A stretch of DNA of 64,000 nt, taken from the NCBI RefSeq assembly GCF_002090155.1, contig NZ_BBRM01000005.1, forward strand, positions 124,001 to 188,000. Reading direction: 5' to 3'. The DNA is from Demequina sp. NBRC 110056. Its GTDB lineage: Bacteria; Actinomycetota; Actinomycetes; Actinomycetales; Demequinaceae. The notes beneath the pieces are model-generated. The model did not search any database, had not been told where the DNA came from, and was given only the letters and a program-made list of their open reading frames with translations. A program made the position numbers and the translations under genes. This document shows positions 8,959 to 30,009 of this stretch, one piece after another; within the stretch, counting starts at the first letter, position 1, and each line of letters opens with the position of its first letter.

Positions 8959-8977
8959 CGCCCCGCCCGGACGGAGC

Positions 8978-8986
8978 GCCGATGCG
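8978..8986 (+). repeat. GCCGATGCG intergenic motif
   Basis: Core motif 20 bp after the AAA ATPase stop, in the convergent gap with the deacetylase gene. It continues CGCGCCGGCTCG, matching the extended intergenic block. Confidence 0.85.
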
Positions 8987-9071
8987 CGCGCCGGCTCGTG
9001 CGTCCCCACCACCTGGGTACGCCTCGCCGCGCGTGCGCAGGGCTCAACGGGCAGGACTTGGCGGGCAGTGC

Positions 9072-9731
9072 TCAGCGCTCCGGCAGGACAAACGACCACC
9101 CCTGCGCGAGCCGCTCGTCCACGACCCGAACGACCGCCTCGACGGCGCCCGCCCGGTCGCCGCCTCCATCGTGGGCGAGCGCCATGGAGCCGGGCGTCAT
9201 CACGGCCCGCAGGCGCTCGGCCAGCACGTCGGGATCCTGCTCGGCCCAGTCGCCGATGTGGCCCTCGACACCGAGGGGCTGCATGCCCAGCTCGACGGCG
9301 ACCTCGCGCGTGACGCCCCAGGACCCGTTGGGCGCGCGCCAGTACGGGACCGGATGACGATCGCCCAGGACGCCGCGGATGATCGCGAGGTTCTCGGCGA
9401 GGTCGGAGCGCACCCGCTCGGCGTCCCACTCGCCCATGTCCGCGAAGGACGTCGAGTGGTTGGCCAGGACATGCCCGTCGTCGGCGACGCGGCGCAGCAC
9501 CTCTGCGCCGCCCGGCCTCTGGATCTCCTGCCCGACCACGCAGAACACGGCACGAACGCCGCGCGCAGAAAGCGCGTCCAGCAGTCGCAACGTGTCCGCG
9601 CCGTTGGGCCCGTCGTCGAAGGTGAGCGCGCAGACCAGGCCCTCGCCCTGTGCCCGCTCGACCGGCTCGGGGCGAGGGTCGGGGTGGCCGCCCGAGGGCG
9701 CATCGGCGCTGCCCGGGGTGACGCCGTGCAC
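9072..9731 (-). CDS. Polysaccharide deacetylase (NodB domain, CE4)
   Basis: 219 residues with a NodB fold. The first catalytic motif is LTFDDGPN (catalytic and metal Asp), followed by the second motif HST in ANHSTSF, the YWRAPNG motif, and LAHDGG near the end. CE4 enzymes remove acetyl groups from xylan, chitin or peptidoglycan. No signal peptide is visible: the first ~30 residues are Gly/Pro/Asp-rich, so a cytoplasmic enzyme acting on imported acetylated xylo-oligosaccharides is plausible given its place 11 bp behind the xylan-type LacI repressor. The GTG start at 9731 is uncertain; a later start would still leave the whole catalytic domain. Confidence 0.85.
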   Translation of the reverse strand: MHGVTPGSADAPSGGHPDPRPEPVERAQGEGLVCALTFDDGPNGADTLRLLDALSARGVRAVFCVVGQEIQRPGGAEVLRRVADDGHVLANHSTSFADMGEWDAERVRSDLAENLAIIRGVLGDRHPVPYWRAPNGSWGVTREVAVELGMQPLGVEGHIGDWAEQDPDVLAERLRAVMTPGSMALAHDGGGDRAGAVEAVVRVVDERLAQGWSFVLPER

Positions 9732-9742
9732 GGCCGCGACCG

Positions 9743-10801
9743 TCAGGCGTCGGCCGGGGCGGACGCCTCGACCGCGGGAGGCGTGGCCCGGCGCAGGACC
9801 GTGGGAGGCGCGGCCGACGTGCCGCGCACAACGAGCTCGGTCGACATGCGCACGTGGTGCTCGCGCTCGACCCCGTTGATGAGGTCGAGCAGCATCGTCA
9901 TGGCCGCGGCACCCATGGCCTGCATGGGCTGGCGCACGGTGGTGAGGGCGGGCGAGGCGAGCGCCGCGTCAGGCACGTCGTCGAAGCCGACCACCGACAG
10001 GTCCTCGGGAACGCGCAGGCCGAACTCGTGCGCGACCTCGACGGCGCGGATCGCGGTCACGTCGTTCGCGGCGAAGATCGCTGTGGGGCGGTCCTCCAGC
10101 GACAGCAGCTCGCGCGCGACGGCGGAGGCGCGGTCGGGGACGTAGCGGGTCTCGCGCACCAGCGCGGGATCGACCGGGATGCCCGCCTCCGCCATGGCGT
10201 TGCGGAAGCCGGCCTCGCGCAGGTGAGCCGAGTCGAGCTCCGAACGGCCGCCCAGGAAGGCGATGCGCGTGTGGCCGAGCGAGATGAGGTGATCGGTCGC
10301 CTGCTCCGCGCCGGTGAAGCTGTCCGCGTCGATGGTCGGCAGCCGGTTGGGGCCGTAGTGGGGATCGACCGCGACCACCGGCACCACGGTGCGGGCGTCG
10401 AGCACGGTGGGAGTGACGATCACGGCGCCTGCGATGAGCGTGCCGCCGAGTCGCGCGAGGGACCGGCGCTCCCACCCGTGGGTGTCGCCGCCGGAGTGCG
10501 CGAGCAGCTCGTACCCCGAGCCTTCTGCCGCGGCGGCGGCACCCTTGATCAGCTCGGCGCTGAAGGGCTCGAAGCTCGCCACCAGGATGCCCAGCACGTT
10601 GGTCTGCTGCATGCGCAGGCTCGAGGCGCTGAGGTTGCCTGCGTAGCCCATCTCCTCGATGACGCCCTGGACCAGCTCGACGGTCTCCTTGGCAACGCCG
10701 TAGCGGCCGTTGACGACCTTCGAGACGGTCGCGACAGAGACGCCCGCCTTGGCGGCGACGTCGGCCATCTTCACCCTTGGAGCTGGTTCCATGACGGCCA
10801 T
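9743..10801 (-). CDS. LacI-family repressor of the xylo-oligosaccharide operon
   Basis: About 352 residues. The N-terminal helix-turn-helix is classic LacI (MADVAAKAGVSVATVSKVVNG), followed by a periplasmic-binding-like sensor domain ending around GFDDVPDAALASPALTTVRQPM. It is divergent from the sugar-binding protein gene, with an operator-like AAACGTTT overlapping that gene's -35 box, so it most likely represses the ABC/GH3/GH10 operon until a sugar is bound. The ATG at 10801 is chosen for GGGGTG about 10 nt upstream; the ATG at 10792 is the alternative. The deacetylase follows 11 bp downstream, probably cotranscribed. Confidence 0.9.
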   Translation of the reverse strand: MAVMEPAPRVKMADVAAKAGVSVATVSKVVNGRYGVAKETVELVQGVIEEMGYAGNLSASSLRMQQTNVLGILVASFEPFSAELIKGAAAAAEGSGYELLAHSGGDTHGWERRSLARLGGTLIAGAVIVTPTVLDARTVVPVVAVDPHYGPNRLPTIDADSFTGAEQATDHLISLGHTRIAFLGGRSELDSAHLREAGFRNAMAEAGIPVDPALVRETRYVPDRASAVARELLSLEDRPTAIFAANDVTAIRAVEVAHEFGLRVPEDLSVVGFDDVPDAALASPALTTVRQPMQAMGAAAMTMLLDLINGVEREHHVRMSTELVVRGTSAAPPTVLRRATPPAVEASAPADA

Positions 10802-10830
10802 GCTACAGCCGCACCCCCACGTGACGAAAT

Positions 10831-10875
10831 CGTTATCGAAAACGTTTGACACCGTGTCGCGGCCGCTGACAGACT
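10831..10875 (+). promoter_or_regulatory. Promoter and LacI operator of the xylan operon
   Basis: TTGACA (10846-10851) and CAGACT (10870-10875) with an 18-bp spacer form a recognisable promoter. AAACGTTT (10840-10847) overlaps the -35 box and lies in CGTTATCGAAAACG, typical of LacI/CebR-type operators in actinobacteria. Binding would block the promoter and could also control the repressor gene. Confidence 0.7.
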
Positions 10876-28925: not shown

Positions 28926-28976
28926 CCCCCTATCTCACCACGCGGGACCGACACGTCCCGTGCCGAACCCAGCGAG

Positions 28977-28985
28977 CGCATCGGC
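28977..28985 (-). repeat. GCCGATGCG intergenic motif
   Basis: Core motif on the minus strand, in the divergent gap between ligA and the M15-like lipoprotein. It continues CTCGCTGGGTTC, matching the extended block. Confidence 0.85.
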
Positions 28986-29022
28986 CCTACCCAGGCCCGA
29001 CGCGGCCCCCTATCCTTGTCCG

Positions 29023-29904
29023 ATGCGCTCCCTGCCTGTCGTCGCCGTCGCGAGCGCCGCGCTGCTCGCCGGCTGCTCCCTCATCTCGTCCGACGCCTCC
29101 CCGACCGTGACGGTCACGGCGACCACGACCGAGACCGCCCAGCCGCAGCCGGGTCCCACGGTGACGGTGGAGGCGGAGCCCGAGGACGACCCGACGTACG
29201 ACCGGCCGCTGTGGCTCGGGCAGATCCCCCTCGAGGTGCAGGAGGACAACCTCGGCGAGCGCGGTCCCACGCCGCCGGAGCTCGAGGACCGCCAGCTCGA
29301 GCCCGCGCCGTGGCTGCCCGATCCCGCGACCGACGACTGGTTCGCGACCGTCGAGCTCGACATCCCCGCCGACGTCGCCGAGCGCTCGTCCTGGGAGCCC
29401 GGCTGCCCGGTGCACATCGACGACCTCGCCTACATCCAGATGCCGTACTGGGGCTTCGACCAGCAGGTCCACACCGGCGAGATGATCGTCCACGACGACC
29501 ACGCCGAGGAGATCGCGGGCGTGTTCGAGAAGATCTTCGCCGCCCAGTTCCCCATCGAGGAGATGCGCGTGATCTCCCGCGAGGACCGGGACTCTCCCCC
29601 GACCGGCGACCACAACATCACCTCGGCGTTCACGTGCCGGCAGATCGTGGGGGCCGTCGAGGTCTGGTCCCAGCACGCCTACGGCAAGGCCATCGACATC
29701 AACCCGTTCCACAACCCGTTCTACCGTGGCGACGAGCTGTTCCCCGAGCTGTCGGAGGCGTACCTCGACCGCGACTGGATCCGTCGCGGCATGATCGACG
29801 AGGCGTCCGCCGTCTACTCCGCCTTCGCGGACATCGGCTGGGGCTGGGGAGGCCACTGGACGGGCCGCGAGGACTGGATGCACTTCTCGGTCACCGGCGG
29901 CTGA
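29023..29904 (+). CDS. Lipoprotein with M15-like (VanY/D-Ala-D-Ala carboxypeptidase) domain
   Basis: 293 residues. Signal peptide with lipobox LLAGC (Cys about residue 17), a Thr-rich linker, then an M15_4-like domain. HAYGKAIDINPFHNP carries the metal His and Asp, and EDWMHFS near the end carries the third metal His. Such proteins trim cell-wall peptides or act as endolysin-type peptidases. The ATG at 29023 is chosen because it begins the signal peptide; 21 upstream codons are open but low-complexity. Substrate specificity is not deducible. Confidence 0.85.
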   Translation: MRSLPVVAVASAALLAGCSLISSDASPTVTVTATTTETAQPQPGPTVTVEAEPEDDPTYDRPLWLGQIPLEVQEDNLGERGPTPPELEDRQLEPAPWLPDPATDDWFATVELDIPADVAERSSWEPGCPVHIDDLAYIQMPYWGFDQQVHTGEMIVHDDHAEEIAGVFEKIFAAQFPIEEMRVISREDRDSPPTGDHNITSAFTCRQIVGAVEVWSQHAYGKAIDINPFHNPFYRGDELFPELSEAYLDRDWIRRGMIDEASAVYSAFADIGWGWGGHWTGREDWMHFSVTGG

Positions 29905-29919
29905 CCCGCCTCGAGCAGC

Positions 29920-29928
29920 GCCGATGCG
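29920..29928 (+). repeat. GCCGATGCG intergenic motif
   Basis: Core motif 16 bp after the M15-like gene stop, continuing CGGGCTGGGTC. Confidence 0.85.
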
Positions 29929-30009
29929 CGGGCTGGGTCCCGCGGAGGGGCGCACCTACGATGGGACTCGGCGCGCTGCGGCGCCTCTCATGACACAGGA
30001 GGTGACGCG

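Follow-up and report, generated by a model that had tools for sequence, protein, structure and literature searches.

A highly repeated motif with species dialects in Demequina, a probable DNA uptake sequence of an actinobacterium

Uptake sequences have been described for the Neisseriaceae and the Pasteurellaceae, both Gram-negative, and biased uptake combined with molecular drive has been published for these known cases (PMC3630211, PMC7811141; statements taken from these papers refer to the parts of them available to us). The DNA uptake sequence (DUS) of the Neisseriaceae is a short, high-copy word that has species dialects with an invariant core, forms inverted intergenic pairs, is kept while its flanks drift, and goes with type IV pili and ComEC (PMC3630211); the uptake signal sequence (USS) of the Pasteurellaceae occurs in hundreds of copies per Mb (PMC7811141). 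Here we describe a 10-mer, GCCGATGCGC, and an extended intergenic form of it that are highly repeated in a 64,000-nucleotide stretch of Demequina sp. NBRC 110056 (contig NZ_BBRM01000005.1, positions 124,001 to 188,000; hereafter the window) and in the 2.94-Mb genome that contains it (G000; Demequinaceae, Actinobacteria). We consider this motif to be, with good probability, a DNA uptake sequence with dialects in a naturally competent Gram-positive actinobacterium.

The Demequina motif resembles the DUS in all of the features just listed, and the USS in its copy number per Mb. It differs from the DUS in that its sequence is unrelated past the first bases GCCG, its consensus extends over ~24 bp, its host is Gram-positive and its receptor is a candidate only. 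The USS has a short core plus a longer, weaker flanking consensus, as does the Demequina motif, which differs from it in sequence, in its GC-rich flanks and in phylum. Among the actinobacteria, Micrococcus luteus offers the nearest comparison, having ComEA/ComEC, a type IV filament that is needed for transformation, and a competence that relies on Flp/Tad pili (PMC6370729, in the part available). Demequina, in contrast, carries a type IVa pilus with PilT, and no uptake sequence of M. luteus is mentioned in that part of PMC6370729. Literature searches on uptake sequences in Actinobacteria, Actinomycetota and Micrococcus luteus, judged mostly at the level of titles, returned no Gram-positive case.

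Abundance, extended form and conservation of the motif

The G000 genome holds 1213 copies of GCCGATGCGC, divided 606/607 between the strands, against 49 copies of the reversed-word control. Detailed counts were made on a 464-kb sample of this genome, consisting of the window and 400 kb of contig C2, in which the 9-mer GCCGATGCG occurs 283 times against 32 expected under an order-3 model. The word is sharply defined: the majority of the 30 single-base variants of the 10-mer lie at about background level. The largest departures are at position 2 (A 29, G 32 and T 23, with 9.5-12 expected), at position 8 (A 20, with 8.5 expected) and at position 10, where C (180) and G (89) prevail and A (6) and T (8) are rare. 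In the window the 10-mer occurs 35 times against 1.84 expected, with shuffles reaching at most 5 (n = 100). Samples of four genomes show no strand bias; even the least balanced 50-kb block, at 16/9, has p 0.23. The LigA encoded in the window has Demequina loci as its closest relatives, with up to 87% identity. A second word, GTAGCCCT, is also over-represented in the window and G000:C2:1-400000 (34 against 5.6 expected).

The preliminary description of this DNA, in reading the block as an intergenic repeat, implied that copies are chiefly intergenic, which does not hold. Of the 283 copies, 72 are intergenic and 211 coding, and it is in density that gaps exceed genes, with 1.66 versus 0.50 copies per kb; the corresponding values are 1.25/0.44, 1.45/0.29 and 1.63/0.65 in three relatives, and the higher density in gaps holds for each of the dialects A, B and C defined below. 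In the window these assignments rest on a simple gene finder of our own, which called 57 genes whose starts are uncertain. Coding copies of GCCGATGCGC number 193 against 44.8 +/- 3.9 in synonymous-codon shuffles (n = 30) and show a strong phase preference, with GCC-GAT-GCG outnumbering GCC-GAC-GCG by 84 to 49 although the overall GAT:GAC ratio is 876:8221 (876 of 9097 Asp codons). The own-dialect word exceeds synonymous shuffles within the genes of all four genomes sampled, each genome showing the strongest effect for its own word. With about three-quarters of the copies inside genes, where they are about four times as many as in synonymous shuffles, the core in genes is not a captured fragment of the intergenic block, as had been suggested, and is instead built from synonymous codons.

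Conservation does extend beyond the 9-mer, as originally proposed. Alignment of the 72 intergenic copies, drawn from the 464-kb sample rather than the whole genome, gives the ~24-bp consensus GnAGS-GCCGATGCGC-KSGCYGGST from -5 to +18, the commonest letters or classes being G at -5, A at -3, G at -2, S at -1, C at +9, K at +10, G at +12, C at +13, Y at +14, G at +15 and +16, S at +17 and T at +18. To avoid circularity, a flank profile was trained on 59 intergenic copies of contig C2 and scored on held-out copies of the window; 9 of the 13 held-out intergenic copies score above the 99% level set by random sites in gaps. Coding copies carry the flank weakly (27 of 173 over the 99% level of random coding sites). 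Very good flank scores are found at 59 intergenic sites, of which 33 have a perfect core, 6 a core with 1-4 mismatches and 20 one with 5-8. When the full extended pattern GSGCCGATGCGCNNGCYGGSTC was searched with up to 3 mismatches allowed, the window gave 19 matches against 0.87 expected and at most 3 in any shuffle (n = 100). Parts of the downstream extension reappear in dialect C.

Outside the block the copies have little in common, with mean identities of 10.2 versus 10.0 of 34 positions on the left and 12.4 versus 11.5 of 40 on the right, relative to random intergenic pairs. The six best right-flank pairs reach 23-27 of 40 against a random maximum of 22; two of these pairs consist of adjacent inverted copies. 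As had been observed, agreement over ~35-40 bp does hold for the copies at 20973 and 22397, 1.4 kb apart; their right flanks match at 27 of 40 positions and those of the next five pairs at 23-24, and likeness past +18 is largely special to these two copies rather than a general trait. Since little sequence is common beyond the consensus, the extended block is a motif and not a repeat element, and the preferable reading is that it represents a recognition motif in its full form, more completely reached where no protein is encoded.

The motif is retained while its surroundings diverge. In an alignment to the relative G028, 232 copies were compared, 72 of which were not alignable; of the other 160, 91 are intact there, the figure for seven control 9-mers being 37 of 233. 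Per-base identity is 0.905 in the motif, with 8 length-changed cases excluded, as against 0.797 for the flanking sequence. The motif is interrupted by a gap in 16 of the 69 lost copies and altered by substitution in the others. The 24 alignable intergenic copies divide into 12 that are intact with drifted flanks and 12 that are lost, 9 of these with gaps in the motif, indicating that small indels contribute. The comparison of orthologous gaps that had been suggested as a check for insertions gave a clean insertion of the block in 0 of the 24 intergenic alignments.

Neighboring intergenic copies tend to be inverted. Relative to random placement that keeps coding copies in genes and intergenic copies in gaps, and with four genomes pooled, intergenic neighbors within 25 bases comprise 12 inverted pairs against 3.8 expected and 1 direct pair against 3.9 expected, and coding neighbors 10 inverted and 8 direct pairs against 5.6 expected for each; under uniform placement the inverted pairs look like chance, and the excess emerges when gap and gene densities are kept apart. 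Of the 12 inverted pairs in gaps, 9 have copies that face each other and 3, all in G031, have copies that face outward, though these numbers are small. Copies per kb in contig C2 are 4.06 in convergent, 1.04 in tandem and 1.03 in divergent gaps, an approximately fourfold convergent excess, and in G010 1.29 in convergent and 1.76 in tandem gaps. A link to terminators as a general property is unsupported, the convergent excess being present in C2 but not in G010; terminators themselves were not looked for.

Dialects across the genus

Other words with the same core were seen in loci, up to 22 kb long, of named Demequina species. In whole-genome counts, 34 of 44 Demequina genomes have one dominant word, or dialect, in 480-1564 copies. 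Dialect A is GCCGATGCGC (742-1213 copies, 6 genomes), dialect B is GGACGATGCG (711-1564 copies, 15 genomes, in which the reversed control has 1-9), dialect C is GGCCGATGCY (480-1269 copies, 12 genomes) and dialect D is GCCCGACGCT (908 copies, in G037 alone); the core common to all is CGAYGC. Partial dialects are seen in G013 (327 copies of C) and G027 (254 of D). On a tree of PilB plus PilT from 41 genomes, dialect A forms one clade (5 of its 6 genomes) while B and C appear in several places, and at least six changes among A, B and C are required; this tree is built from two pilus genes and may itself contain transfers. One genome, G018, has two dialects together (927 B and 355 A words) and is possibly a genome caught in the middle of a dialect change. 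In pooled loci of dialect B (L015, L016, L020 and others) the palindrome CGCGATCGCG is enriched, with 94 copies against 21.4 expected.

The A word alone was also searched in 297 genomes of the same order, 273 of them outside the family, and in these 273 it reaches at most 197 copies. The extreme enrichment is a Demequina trait within this sample of the order.

Pilus and competence genes and a candidate receptor

PilT and ComEC, parts of the machinery that an uptake sequence would require, occur across the genus. All 44 genomes have PilT (TIGR01420, above the curated cut-off) and 43 have ComEC (PF03772), the one miss, G036, being an 85% complete assembly. The ComEC match falls in two pieces in G037 (G037:C1:2039413-2040200), in G023 (G023:C1:423579-424363) and in the half-complete G011; one piece in G023 reads through a stop, reflecting either a sequencing error or a real loss, and G037, with its split match, still has 908 copies of its own dialect. 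In G000 the type IVa operon includes, in order, PilB, PilT, PilC, PilA and a 677-residue pilin-like protein with an Ig domain, followed by a minor pilin, a 512-residue PilX-like protein, PilD, PilM, PilN and PilO. ComEA, ComEC and holA lie together elsewhere than the pilus operon, ComEA being identified by its SLBB and helix-hairpin-helix domains in this genome only. The names PilM, PilN, PilO, PilX and holA are presumed from position.

Beyond PilT, the pilus operon is of differing types among species with similar PilB and PilT, as if this part had been repeatedly replaced. The PilC-PilM region of G000:C2 (L108:3903-12066) and the loci L147-L186 show these divergent operon types together with lower G+C and few motifs. 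In all four 400-kb samples the operon lies within a motif-free gap that ranks among the three longest. Genome density would predict 84.4 own-dialect words in the PilC-PilM interior of 33 genomes, where 14 are found, and 74.4 in the remainder of the same loci, where 31 are found; for the operon interior of four genomes, 2 words were found against 19.9 expected by density and 11.8 after correction for composition. Part of this depletion is due to the lower G+C (0.58-0.68).

A pilin gene outside the operon, here called the lone pilin, was found in 12 of the 14 genomes first examined and gives a strong score in 30 of 44. In 11 of 12 cases it adjoins a gene that we take, by its sequence, to be MetE-like. 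All 12 members have the N-methylation motif, and two cysteines are invariant. The G000 lone pilin has no Pfam match besides N_methyl, and none of the 12 members matches Pfam ComP_DUS; the PilA of G000 scores 17.9 bits against ComP_DUS, under the 27.3-bit cut-off. The lone pilin is a candidate only for the DNA uptake receptor. Nine of the 14 genomes without a strong lone pilin carry an operon pilin with the same WC...C ending. The two kinds of pilin do not simply replace each other, since some genomes, for example G005, G026 and G031, have both. Lone pilins of dialect A end in GYVEQ..C in 4 of 4 copies and those of dialect B in GYVEN..C in 8 of 12, a match to which we give no weight because of shared descent. 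Covariation with dialect is not seen in the operon pilins, which differ by operon type instead.

The motif copies of the window and the lone pilin of G000 are collected in Table 1. All eight copies named in the preliminary description were recovered, at positions right to within one base, and by our gene calls seven are intergenic and the one at 17833 is coding. Five of the eight match GSGCCGATGCGCNNGCYGGSTC exactly (plus strand 8976, 20971, 22395 and 29918; minus strand 46154), two have one mismatch (17823 and 28966, both minus) and one has two (3697, minus). Rfam and tRNA scans of the window gave no matches.

Table 1. Motif copies in the window (window coordinates) and the lone pilin of G000
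Feature	Position	Strand	Flank score or basis
Motif copy, core only, intergenic by the gene calls; possible overlap with a gene start (2707 or 2779)	2698..2721	+	-10.1
Motif copy, intergenic, weak extension	3698..3721	-	-1.9
Motif copy, convergent gap, full extension	8973..8996	+	11.4
Motif copy, convergent gap, full extension; similar to the copy at 22397 as far as ~+33	20968..20991	+	12.6
Motif copy, tandem gap, full extension	22392..22415	+	14.3
Motif copy, divergent gap adjoining ligA, full extension	28967..28990	-	15.8
Motif copy, tandem gap, full extension	29915..29938	+	14.7
Motif copy with G at +9 (GCCGATGCGG), intergenic	40318..40341	+	2.5
Motif copy, tandem gap upstream of pgi, full extension	46155..46178	-	13.5
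Motif copy, intergenic, extended	49738..49761	+	10.5
Motif copy, intergenic, weak extension	53886..53909	+	-0.9
Motif copy, intergenic, partial extension	57305..57328	+	6.1
Motif copy, intergenic, partial extension	59934..59957	+	7.6
Coding 10-mer, extended form with one mismatch, in gene 16437-17882 (+)	17833..17842	-	pattern search
10-mer in gene 4941-6272 (+), in frame GCC GAT GCG C	5184..5193	+	pattern search, gene calls
Two 10-mers (54606-54615, 54639-54648), direct pair in gene 54232-54699	54606..54648	-	pattern search, gene calls
Two 10-mers (36771-36780, 36833-36842) in gene 36535-37401	36771..36842	-	pattern search, gene calls
Lone pilin of G000, between MetE-like and acetyltransferase genes	L247:3303-3743, G000:C7	-	position kept in several relatives

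A DNA uptake sequence and the alternatives

From the computed over-representation, strand neutrality, extended consensus, synonymous excess, retention against drifting flanks, inverted pairs, dialects, pilus and competence genes and operon depletion, we infer competence, biased uptake, the identity of a receptor and drive. In the model that results, a pilin of the type IVa pilus would read the motif, with extracellular DNA that carries it bound preferentially; retraction by PilT would pull the bound DNA in, ComEA and ComEC would transfer one strand to the cytoplasm, and recombination would swap the homologous stretch. Fragments bearing the motif would be taken up more often and motif-gaining alleles would spread by molecular drive, so that the motif would build up on both strands, in its full form between genes and as the shorter core in synonymous codons. 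A shift in receptor specificity would be followed by the motif population and would give rise to dialects.

Several observations weigh against this model. In eight genomes (G004, G012, G023, G033, G034, G036, G039 and G043) none of the four words reaches a high count. Two of these genomes are nevertheless raised over control (G023 with 235 B and 291 C words, controls 4 and 38; G012 with 263 C words, control 25). Five of the eight (G004, G012, G023, G034 and G043) were sampled for other words, which gave GCCGACGCT in G034 (27 against 4.1 expected in 77 kb), GCCGATGC in G012 (38 against 13.6 expected) and no clear motif in G004, G023 and G043, their pilus and ComEC genes notwithstanding. Separation of the dialects is incomplete, with 96-122 B words in A genomes (control 2-4), 95-355 A words in B genomes (control 44-103), and an A word that exceeds synonymous shuffles in both the B sample (63 versus 28.9) and the C sample (116 versus 33.8). 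The model also leaves unexplained why certain genomes of other families, G289 among them (168 against a control of 17), have a moderate excess of the A word. A strong lone pilin is missing from 14 of 44 genomes. Both G002 and G028 have A-dialect motifs, although the lone pilin of G002 appears to have a disrupted reading frame and a good copy of the gene was not found in G028. The lone pilin follows dialect no better than PilB and PilT do: over 22 rows, dialect changes number 5 on the lone-pilin tree and 4 on that of PilB plus PilT, a comparison that omits genomes with no clear A, B or C dialect as well as G011 and G041, whose PilB/PilT loci were not in the set retrieved. Stretches unaligned to G028 are slightly depleted in copies when runs of more than 3 kb are taken (0.45 versus 0.58 per kb) and not depleted when all unaligned runs are counted (0.59 per kb); these stretches were set against 400 kb of G028 alone, and some may be rearranged rather than new. 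Finally, no uptake or transformation data for Demequina were found in the literature, judged from titles and abstract openings, and no report of competence or pili in the genus, judged mostly from titles.

An intracellular DNA-binding protein is a possible explanation of the motif, the form that we weighed being the binding site of a chromosome-organizing or nucleoid protein whose specificity varies among species. The even spread, the presence on both strands and a 24-bp consensus that resembles a protein footprint would all suit such a protein, but a density of about one site per 1.6 kb with a strong excess in synonymous codons would be unusual for it and avoidance of the pilus operon is not predicted, making this reading unlikely. 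A Chi-like site regulating a recombination nuclease of the RecBCD/AdnAB type is quite unlikely. Like Chi, the motif is a frequent, short, asymmetric chromosomal word that also occurs inside genes, but it has no strand polarity overall or in any 50-kb block, its inverted intergenic pairs are in excess, and the word differs within the genus, with the six or more dialect changes described above. Chi is not known to vary among relatives in this manner, and we set it aside for the lack of polarity and the dialects.

The preliminary description read the block as a dispersed short intergenic repeat, and was right that an extended block exists and is more than a frequent word; what did not stand is the repeat element, given flanks that are nearly random and no clean insertion. 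A mobile or REP-like repeat would account for the extended intergenic consensus, for the long agreement of the copies at 20973 and 22397 and for the gaps in 9 of 12 lost intergenic copies. With little common sequence outside -5 to +18, no element boundary past the motif in the alignments, and about three-quarters of the copies coding in a preferred phase, we judge this reading very unlikely. The cyanobacterial HIP1 is a palindrome, GCGATCGC, held by methylation or repair bias. A highly iterated word of that kind would share the high density and the enrichment both in and between genes, but GCCGATGCGC is not its own reverse complement, its intergenic consensus is extended and asymmetric, and it has dialects; lacking a palindrome, this explanation is highly improbable. 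A translation-start or regulatory signal, in which GCCG-ATG-CGC would make start codons, has next to no probability on grounds of position: open reading frames at 2707, 8982, 40327 and 61006 do begin within the motif, but three of the four run opposite to called genes, for the fourth (2707) our calls place the start at 2779, an uncertain choice, and convergent gaps are at least as dense in copies as divergent ones in 5 of 5 samples. That the extension represents a start codon with N-terminal codons was rejected on account of the same three frames and of its presence in convergent gaps.

A DNA uptake sequence is thus the reading that we favor. Possible, but well short of probable, is a fuller account in which Demequina would have a self-recognizing transformation system of its own origin, in which four or more dialects have switched at least six times within the genus and the reader is a two-cysteine pilin, encoded either alone, mostly beside the metE-like gene, or as the major pilin of the operon. 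On that account, uptake sequences would have arisen independently in Gram-positive bacteria. A third, unrelated case, in the Actinobacteria, across many species and with dialects that changed repeatedly, would allow tests of how motifs originate, spread and switch, and would test whether molecular drive through a biased pilus suffices. The reading predicts natural competence in Demequina and points to an inexpensive genomic indicator of competence that could serve in other bacteria.

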